The notes under the pieces were generated by a model. It had not been told where the DNA came from, searched no databases, and saw only the letters and a program-made list of their open reading frames with translations. A program made the translations under genes and the position numbers. This document shows positions 36,127 through 37,755 of a DNA stretch of 64,000 nt, in pieces. The stretch comes from Mucilaginibacter dorajii (GTDB taxonomy: Bacteria; Bacteroidota; Bacteroidia; Sphingobacteriales; Sphingobacteriaceae): positions 1 to 64,000 of the forward strand of contig NZ_JANTYS010000006.1 in the NCBI RefSeq assembly GCF_024808255.1, given 5' to 3'. Position 1 is the stretch's first letter; every line of letters starts with the position of its first letter.

Positions 36127-37755
36127 CTACACCAGGGCATACAAATCTTCACGTTGTTTTTGTACAACAGCGCTATTGATATACTCGTCATAAGTCATCA
36201 ATTTATCTATATAACCGCCCGGGGTAAGTTCAATAATGCGGTTGGCTACGGTTTCAACCAGTTCGTGATCTCGCGTAGTGAATAGAATAGTTCCCCGGAA
36301 GTCTTTCATGCCATTATTAAGCGCTGTGATCGACTCCAGGTCCAGGTGGTTGGTTGGTTCATCAAACATCAGTAAGTTGGCTTGTTGTAGCATCATACGG
36401 CTAAACATGCAACGCATTTTCTCGCCACCAGATAGTACATTACTTTTTTTCAAAACCTCCTCACCTGAGAACAGCATACGGCCTAAAAAGCCGCGGATAA
36501 ACTGGTCGTCTTTTTCGCCGGGCGAATATTCACGCAACCAGTCAATCAGGTTATCATCTTTGCCTTTAAAATATTCGGCATTATCAATTGGGATATCTGC
36601 CGGATTAATGGTAACACCCCATTTAAATGTGCCTTTGTAATCAATATCTCTGCCGGTTAAAATGTTGTAGAGGGCAGTGGTAGCTAAACTGTTTTGCGAC
36701 AGGATGGCAATTTTATCGCCTTTGTTAACCGTAAAGCTGATGTTATTAAACAATAAGTCACCGTTAAGGGATTTTTTAAGGTTTTCAACCTGTAATATCT
36801 GGTCACCAGCTTCGCGGCCAAGGTTGTTGAATATGATACCCGGGTACTTGCGGTTTGACGGCTGGATCTCGTCGATATTGATCTTGTCCAGGGCTTTTTT
36901 CCTGCTGGTAGCTTGTTTTGATTTAGAAGCATTTGCACTAAACCTGCGAATAAACTCCTGCAGCTCCTTAACACGTTCTTCTGTCTTTTTATTCTGATCA
37001 GATCTTTGTTTAAGGGCTAATTGACTTGACTCGTACCAGAAAGTATAGTTACCGGTATAGATGGTCATTTTAGCAAAGTCAATATCCACCACGTGGGTAC
37101 AAACGGTATCCAGGAAGTGTCTGTCGTGCGATACTACTAAAACAATAGCCTCATATGAGGCCAGAAAGTCTTCCAGCCAGCTAACGGTGTGGATGTCCAG
37201 ATCATTGGTAGGCTCATCCAGTAACAAAATATCTGGCTTGCCAAATAGCGCTTGTGCCAATAACACACGTACTTTTTGGGTATTATCCAAATCTTTTACC
37301 AGGCTGTAATGAAATTCTTCTTTAATGCCAAGGTTGCTCAGTAGGGTAGCTGCATTACTTTCGGCATTCCAGCCATCCATTTCGGCAAAAAGATTTTCCA
37401 GCTCGCCGGCACGTTCGCCGTCGGCATCGGTAAAATCTTCTTTCAAATAAATGGCGTCTTTCTCCTTCATTACGGCGTACATTTCCTTGTGCCCCATCAT
37501 TACGGTTTCAAGTACCGAATATTCGTCAAAAGCATAGTGGTTTTGACTCAATACCGCCATCCGTTCGCCGGGCGTAAAACTTACCGACCCGCTGCTGGGA
37601 TCAATATCGCCTGAAAGAATTTTTAAAAATGTTGACTTACCGGCACCATTAGCACCTATAATGCCATAGCAGTTGCCCTGAGAGAATTTTAGATTAACGT
37701 CTTCAAATAAAGTACGCTTACCGTAACGTAAAGATAAATTGGATACCGTGATCAT
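36127..37755 (-). CDS. ABC-F family ATPase (YbiT-like) with degenerate second nucleotide site
   Basis: A 542-residue cytoplasmic translation-associated ATPase without membrane domains. NBD1 has an intact Walker A (GANGAGKS, Lys40), Walker B ([11 protein letters not shown], about 177-187) and switch His210, but its signature is degenerate (LDNTQ, 156-160). A linker with [15 protein letters not shown] (about 271-285) follows, as in YbiT. NBD2 keeps LSGGE (441-445) and [10 protein letters not shown]. Its Walker A is lost ([11 protein letters not shown], about 351-361, no GKS/T), and the switch reads FTTRDHE instead of VSHDR. Thus one composite ATP site is canonical and the other appears dead. 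ABC-F proteins act at the ribosome. Confidence 0.92.

Follow-up and report, generated by a model that had tools for sequence, protein, structure and literature searches.

The window analysed here, a stretch of 64,000 nucleotides from Mucilaginibacter dorajii, carries on its minus strand, at positions 36127..37755, one open reading frame encoding a 542-residue YbiT/YkpA-type ABC-F protein whose two composite ATP sites differ, the first being intact and the second dismantled. Tandem ABC domains lie in one chain, since Pfam reports ABC_tran twice, and no membrane family is among its five matches. The first ABC domain (NBD1, about residues 1–222, 37090..37755, minus strand as are all features of the gene) is defined by the ABC_tran match at residues 18–184 and by the predicted model, and the second (NBD2, about residues 307–542 plus the stop codon, 36127..36837) by alignment and the model. 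Between them lies the linker, or P-site tRNA interaction motif (about residues 223–306, 36838..37089), which Pfam recognises as ABC_tran_Xtn (PF12848, residues 223–304) with 75.6 bits against a cut-off of 25.9. A tRNA-Lys gene is located nearby at 35907–35980, and the neighbouring genes are pyrE, a NUDIX gene, coaD and an SRPBCC-like gene, all four of which are kept in two Mucilaginibacter loci (L205 and L210) and in locus L044. Outside the first genus set each of the four occurs near the gene in only 3–5 of 180 loci, counted with flanks of 4 kb in many loci and shorter ones in some; the neighbour order is thus conserved among close relatives but not farther away, and it is uninformative on function.

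In an ABC dimer, each ATP is sandwiched between the Walker A motif of one domain and the signature motif of the other, so that the motifs of the two domains are to be read as two composite sites. Site I is complete in the window protein. NBD1 contributes its Walker A motif GANGAGKST (residues 34–42, 37630..37656), the Q-loop glutamine Q71, the Walker B motif and D-loop (residues 177–187, 37195..37227, assigned from sequence motif and conservation) and the switch histidine H210 (37126..37128), and NBD2 contributes the signature LSGGE (residues 441–445, 36421..36435). The NBD2 Walker B motif FDEPTNHLD and D-loop (residues 461–472, 36340..36375) are also present, and this D-loop serves site I. 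In site II, the NBD2 Walker A position reads SQNSLATTA (residues 353–361, 36673..36699), with the P-loop glycines and the lysine absent, the Q-loop glutamine is lost (I390, 36586..36588), the switch histidine is replaced by R495 (TRD for SHD, 36271..36273), and the NBD1 signature position is occupied by LDNTQ (residues 156–160, 37276..37290) where LSGGQ is expected. Site II is dismantled from both halves of the protein and the residues of site I are kept.

When aligned to E. coli YbiT (9njf), SQNSLATTA falls on GTNGVGKST, and by sequence the loop 353–361 holds no lysine that could substitute for the one lost from the P-loop; for K348, in the strand before the loop, E. coli YbiT has a lysine at the equivalent place. 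The original prediction had assigned an intact Walker A, Walker B and switch histidine and the signature LDNTQ to NBD1, and a kept LSGGE and Walker B with a lost Walker A and switch histidine to NBD2, and both assignments agree with the motifs and with the YbiT alignment. It was also right that these losses fall on the same composite site, in what proves to be a YbiT-like ABC-F that is asymmetric and maintained by selection, and that in E. coli YbiT the first signature is degenerate (VAPGW) but the second Walker A intact; the loss of the NBD2 Q-loop glutamine had been missed.

Several lines of evidence place the protein within the ABC-F family. The closest solved protein by sequence is E. coli YbiT (E 1.5e-146), with EttA well behind (8.5e-80). 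The best NCBIfam model is NF011646 (PRK15064, the YbiT equivalog), but its score of 636.6 bits is 125 under the cut-off of 762, so that the protein is not filed under the YbiT equivalog; in 14 control genomes the same model has matches in 7 at E 1e-100 and is above its cut-off in one. An AlphaFold2 model built from 51 aligned sequences (pLDDT 86.8, pTM 0.80) has E. coli YbiT on the ribosome as its top Foldseek match, and VIA-align does not separate human ABCF1 (Z 29.5, 436 residues aligned, rmsd 4.1) from YbiT (Z 29.4, 487 aligned, rmsd 8.7). In phylogenetic trees, YbiT-type proteins are separated from four other ABC-Fs with an SH-aLRT of 100 (91 rows) and from two outgroups with 100/100, and the window protein groups with E. 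coli YbiT apart from the other ABC-Fs, in the YbiT/YkpA lineage. By descent and architecture it is an ABC-F, a variant that fails one ABC-F feature, the NBD2 Walker A. The window genome contains a single YbiT-type gene, the next ABC-F being a far weaker match, and five more ABC-F-like genes were found in it, each with two canonical Walker A motifs, which makes the degenerate site peculiar to the YbiT-type gene among them.

The distribution of the loss was surveyed by searches of increasing breadth. Of 61 genomes searched in the genus, among them the window's own, 59 carry the gene, with a full-length frame in most cases, and the two without a match are 61% and 79% complete. Matches were obtained in 116 of 121 genomes in the family search, in 104 of 149 in the class search and in 47 of 199 in Bacillota. 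In the phylum search, 57 of 198 genomes had a YbiT-type match no weaker than 1e-126 and 8 further matches near 1e-87 were other ABC-Fs, and with E. coli YbiT as the query 86 of 296 genomes had a match. A plasmid collection, which seems to hold some chromosomes, gave 52 matching records. Proteins were then read from samples of these: 30 of the 59 genus matches plus L168, 31 of 101 family matches outside the genus, 49 of 99 class matches from beyond the family, a partly overlapping set of 20 stretches and 30 loci from the phylum, all 47 Bacillota matches (one as L179) and 17 of the 52 plasmid-collection records. This amounted to 303 proteins, of which 288 were distinct after removal of 15 duplicates; L114 is unreadable (X) at the NBD2 loop and L126 comes without its first 61 residues. 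One broken gene, L057 (genome G158, same family, minus strand), was left out of all counts. It consists of overlapping reading frames at 4991–6014 and 5983–6619 that correspond to NBD1 plus linker and to NBD2, with the break between linker and NBD2, for which a frameshift, an assembly error and a true split gene are all possible.

Among the 288 distinct YbiT-type proteins, the NBD2 Walker A is degenerate in 276, canonical in 11 and unreadable in one. Lysine is retained with at least one P-loop glycine lost in 73 of the degenerate proteins and is absent from the other 203, and 160 of the 276 have lost the lysine together with all three P-loop glycines. None of the 109 readable proteins in the genus (31), family (30) and class (48) samples has a canonical motif, one further class row being unreadable. 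The canonical side rests on only 11 sequences, whose sources are E. coli, Halomonas, Pseudoalteromonas, Neisseria, Vibrio and Neochlamydia, as well as five from other classes of the window's own phylum (L127, L128, L157, L161 and L166). Degenerate proteins in Bacillota include those of Bacillus, Paenibacillus, Listeria, Staphylococcus and Enterococcus, and beyond Bacteroidota and Bacillota they occur in Fusobacteriota, Mycoplasmatota, Spirochaetota, Omnitrophota, Fibrobacterales, Thermodesulfobacteriota, Desulfobulbaceae, Bdellovibrio and an Ardenticatenaceae MAG. In a named genome collection, 0 of the best 80 matches is canonical, a figure that gives no frequency because these are the best matches to a query with a degenerate site. 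All 21 degenerate-clade genomes searched for ABC-Fs have a single YbiT-type gene, with a best match of 1.3e-146 or better and the next ABC-F at 4e-104 or weaker. The original prediction had suggested that the extra loss is clade-specific; this does not hold for Walker A, whose loss marks a large multi-phylum clade, and holds loosely for the switch histidine.

L119, L120 and L121 (family f71), which are placed outside the window's class, share 68–69% identity with the window protein and are closer to it than most class rows, and their switch residue is a lysine (SKDH); either horizontal transfer or an anomalous placement may account for this. In Paenibacillus eucommiae (G590, contig C32, 65811–71538), three ABC-F genes lie in a row, the last of which is a degenerate YbiT-type gene.

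The motifs of the 276 degenerate proteins follow the division seen in the window protein. In NBD1, Walker A is present in all 275 readable proteins, and the Q-loop glutamine, the Walker B DE and the switch histidine are each present in 276 of 276; in NBD2, G-x-x-G-x-G-K occurs in none, the Q-loop glutamine in 8 and the signature SGG[EQ] in all 276. Other NBD2 residues are still largely kept, namely the Walker B aspartate (272/276), the catalytic glutamate (217/276) and the switch histidine (184/276), which is more than a wholly idle site needs, and they may have other roles. Retention of the switch histidine differs between samples (0/31 in the genus, 4/30 in the rest of the family and 43/48 in the other class rows), and its loss recurs elsewhere, for example in part of Bacillota. 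Two residues further on, at the position of H497 in the window protein, the clade mostly reads SHDH (histidine in 72 of 80 rows) as against SHDR in E. coli YbiT. The catalytic glutamate is lost from 59 of the 276 proteins in all, among them Bacteroidales and several clostridial members (L101, L110, L212, L222, L229, L230, L238–L240, L242, L339, L340 and others) that read DTPTN, DSPTN, DNPTN or DQPTN. Four of the 276 (L173, L179, L291 and L342) have LSGGE at the NBD1 signature position, as if half of site II had been kept or regained by chance.

In trees from which most of the trait columns had been removed, the degenerate proteins come out as a single clade, with an SH-aLRT of 99 in a quick tree of 91 YbiT-type rows and four other ABC-Fs and with 100/100 (bootstrap/SH-aLRT) in a more careful tree of 48 rows, where all 35 sampled degenerate rows fall together, and the switch between the canonical and degenerate states requires one change in both. 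Grouping of the 11 canonical proteins as one clade gives an AU p of 0.146. The change is read as a loss, an inference drawn from the canonical motifs of the ABC-F paralogs in the window genome. Since all 11 canonical YbiTs, too, have a degenerate NBD1 signature, this motif probably decayed first. On the 91-row tree, there are 7 changes of the lysine, 9 of the Walker B glutamate and 11 of the switch histidine, from which it follows that erosion of site II continued after the first loss; a division of the clade into lysine-keeping and lysine-lacking halves was considered and rejected, since the lysine changes 7 times on this tree and 3 times on the 48-row tree. In the lineage of the window protein, the loss of the lysine dates to the base of a Bacteroidota group, all 35 rows of which lack it, or to an earlier point, and the switch histidine was lost later. 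The canonical NBD2 motif was probably broken once, with the lysine lost several times and the switch histidine repeatedly, the window lineage included. Lysine loss showed no association with loss of the Walker B glutamate or of the switch histidine across 6 to 8 independent pairs (median p 1).

Conservation within the clade tracks the ATP site and not the domain, in both halves of the protein. Over 80 tree rows, the residues of site I have an entropy of 0.01 bits and those of site II 1.52, compared to 1.16 for all columns; the values are 0.01 and 1.59 within NBD1 and 0.00 and 1.47 within NBD2, and the gap between the sites is reached by none of 20000 label shuffles. The residues compared are textbook motif positions with the A-loop left out. 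The comparison is descriptive rather than predictive, because the motif tables and some column entropies were already known beforehand, and its Walker A rows are partly circular because they define the groups. Among the 11 canonical proteins, conservation extends to the site II positions of NBD2 (0.08 bits), and it is mainly the first signature that varies; the gap of 0.41 bits between their sites, reached by 286 of 20000 shuffles, is weaker and arises through the signature, so that part of the asymmetry predates the clade. Within the genus, the pooled pN/pS of 30 sequences is 0.045 for NBD1, 0.039 for the linker, the lowest of the three, and 0.109 for NBD2, and the gene is under purifying selection, NBD2 included; only pooled ratios are quoted since pS is 0.67–0.75, with synonymous sites near saturation.

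We put at about three in four the probability that the window protein is, as predicted here, a housekeeping translation factor of the YbiT/YkpA type belonging to a large clade whose members have dispensed with the second ATP site. Such a protein would bind at the E site of the ribosome as its relatives do, with the linker reaching the peptidyl-transferase centre. The clamp would close on a single ATP held between the NBD1 Walker A and the NBD2 LSGGE, NBD2, itself free of nucleotide, contributing the signature and the D-loop, and hydrolysis of that one ATP would allow the protein to leave the ribosome. It would probably act as described for YbiT of E. coli and YkpA of B. subtilis, by easing the translation of charged stretches. 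For the clade as it extends over much of the bacteria, we consider the chances about even that one ATP is used per cycle, that NBD2 is never nucleotide-bound and that the alternating two-ATP clamp of the EttA type is dispensable, site II having been given up once after the earlier decay of the signature and having eroded independently since.

The rival that survives best, which we judge unlikely, is that site II binds nucleotide without hydrolysing it, through a non-standard pocket as in many heterodimeric exporters, and that two nucleotides are still needed for closure. In the model of NBD2, the strand (348–352) and helix (356–367) flanking the P-loop are still predicted to form, and the Walker B aspartate noted above is accompanied across the clade by a Ser/Thr at its Walker A position in 261 of 276 proteins and by the lysine in 73, in which site II may on that account still hold nucleotide; the core S.NSLAT[TS]A is also present in 30 of 30 genus sequences. 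However, the window protein itself is without the glycines, the lysine, the Q-loop glutamine, the switch histidine and the opposing signature, and the lysine of the 203 members that lack it is replaced mostly by T, I, V, M, L or N. To our knowledge, degenerate exporter sites keep Walker A as a rule.

Reuse of the pocket, with the replacement loop binding another ligand or a ribosomal element, is considerably less probable still. The loop is not random, since the third glycine position is alanine in 237 of 276 proteins and 69 of 80 rows have Asn/Asp at position 355, and it is near-fixed within the genus, but across the clade its columns range from mid-range to among the freest (percentiles 0.37–0.96) and no common new motif was seen in it. 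Completion of site II in trans by a second ABC-F is very improbable: the five further ABC-F-like genes, each encoding a canonical Walker A in both domains, could offer a partner, but the linker and both NBDs are complete in the window protein and the NBD1 signature required by any partner is itself degenerate, and we know of no ABC-F that works as a heterodimer completing a site in trans. That the gene is decaying, or that the loss is a frameshift or sequencing artefact, has a negligible probability and is regarded as refuted, for although L057 has its gene broken at about residue 334, a loss of the same kind is shared by every one of the 31 genus sequences and by 276 of the 288 proteins, most genus genomes have full-length frames and a pN/pS of 0.04–0.11 marks purifying selection.

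Loss of the second ATP site in a translation factor would bear on how ABC-Fs are studied, as work on them rests on two ATP sites and EttA structures are interpreted, in the available text, as sites engaging in turn. A widespread natural ABC-F with one usable site, as predicted here, makes the role of each site directly testable, including in B. subtilis. The double Glu-to-Gln mutant, described as the standard ABC-F tool in the accessible part of PMC11282234, may be the wrong trap for proteins of the degenerate clade. A degenerate ABC-F site is the subject of no title or abstract start among the open-access matches listed, which do not cover bioRxiv, most subscription journals or supplements, and a prior mention is possible. 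In the accessible main text of PMC11381351, ‘Walker’ and ‘degenerate’ do not occur, and in that of PMC6723617 the only instance of ‘walker’ is in the title of a reference; the available parts of PMC3378599 and PMC2848647 contain no eukaryotic ABC-F with a degenerate site as a precedent. The product name in the 9 annotated degenerate records opened is ‘ATP-binding cassette domain-containing protein’ and the 2 annotated canonical records opened are called ABC-F, so the lost site may explain why degenerate proteins carry no family name in databases. The asymmetry is real, well supported and broader than the original prediction had it, and the mechanism is what we infer from it; judged from the sequences, the one-pocket design is common to a large bacterial group and no quirk of one genome.

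Among characterised proteins, E. coli YbiT (NP_415341.1) resembles the window protein in architecture, linker and 42–43% identity, and both have a degenerate first signature and an intact site I. It differs in keeping the NBD2 GTNGVGKST, Q-loop glutamine and switch histidine, and it also keeps the NBD2 catalytic glutamate, which some lineages of the degenerate clade do not. It has been solved on ribosomes as the EQ2 mutant (9njf, 9nlf), according to the titles of the complexes, and is said in the available text of PMC12096078 to aid polybasic and polyacidic stretches. YkpA is named as the B. subtilis YbiT in the accessible parts of PMC6723617 and PMC11381351, the latter of which reports mild stalling on polylysine and polyglutamate reporters without it. 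Its relative in Bacillus velezensis (L332) belongs to the degenerate clade, with FTGRNELAVTTL in which the lysine is replaced, and it keeps the NBD2 glutamate and, unlike the window protein, the NBD2 switch histidine; B. subtilis YkpA itself is probably a member of the same clade.

EttA (E. coli, M. tuberculosis) shares with the window protein the ABC-F fold, tandem NBDs and a linker to the P-site tRNA, and the available text of PMC8782954 has ATP engaged by its two working sites alternately as the ribosome rotates and describes the ATP motifs of most ABC-Fs as highly conserved, with the exception of the NBD1 A-loop. In contrast to EttA, as described there with two working sites, the window protein has no P-loop at one of them, and a protein of the YkpA clade could alternate in the same manner only if nucleotide were bound at site II despite the lack of a normal P-loop. 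Heterodimeric ABC exporters (BmrCD, TM287/288 and TAP) likewise pair one consensus with one degenerate composite site. These are membrane transporters, and the window protein has no membrane family in Pfam, so that the likeness is one of mechanism only. The order of loss differs as well: the hallmark of degenerate-site exporters, in the accessible part of PMC7544095, is loss of the catalytic glutamate, whereas in the YbiT clade Walker A goes first and the glutamate is mostly kept.
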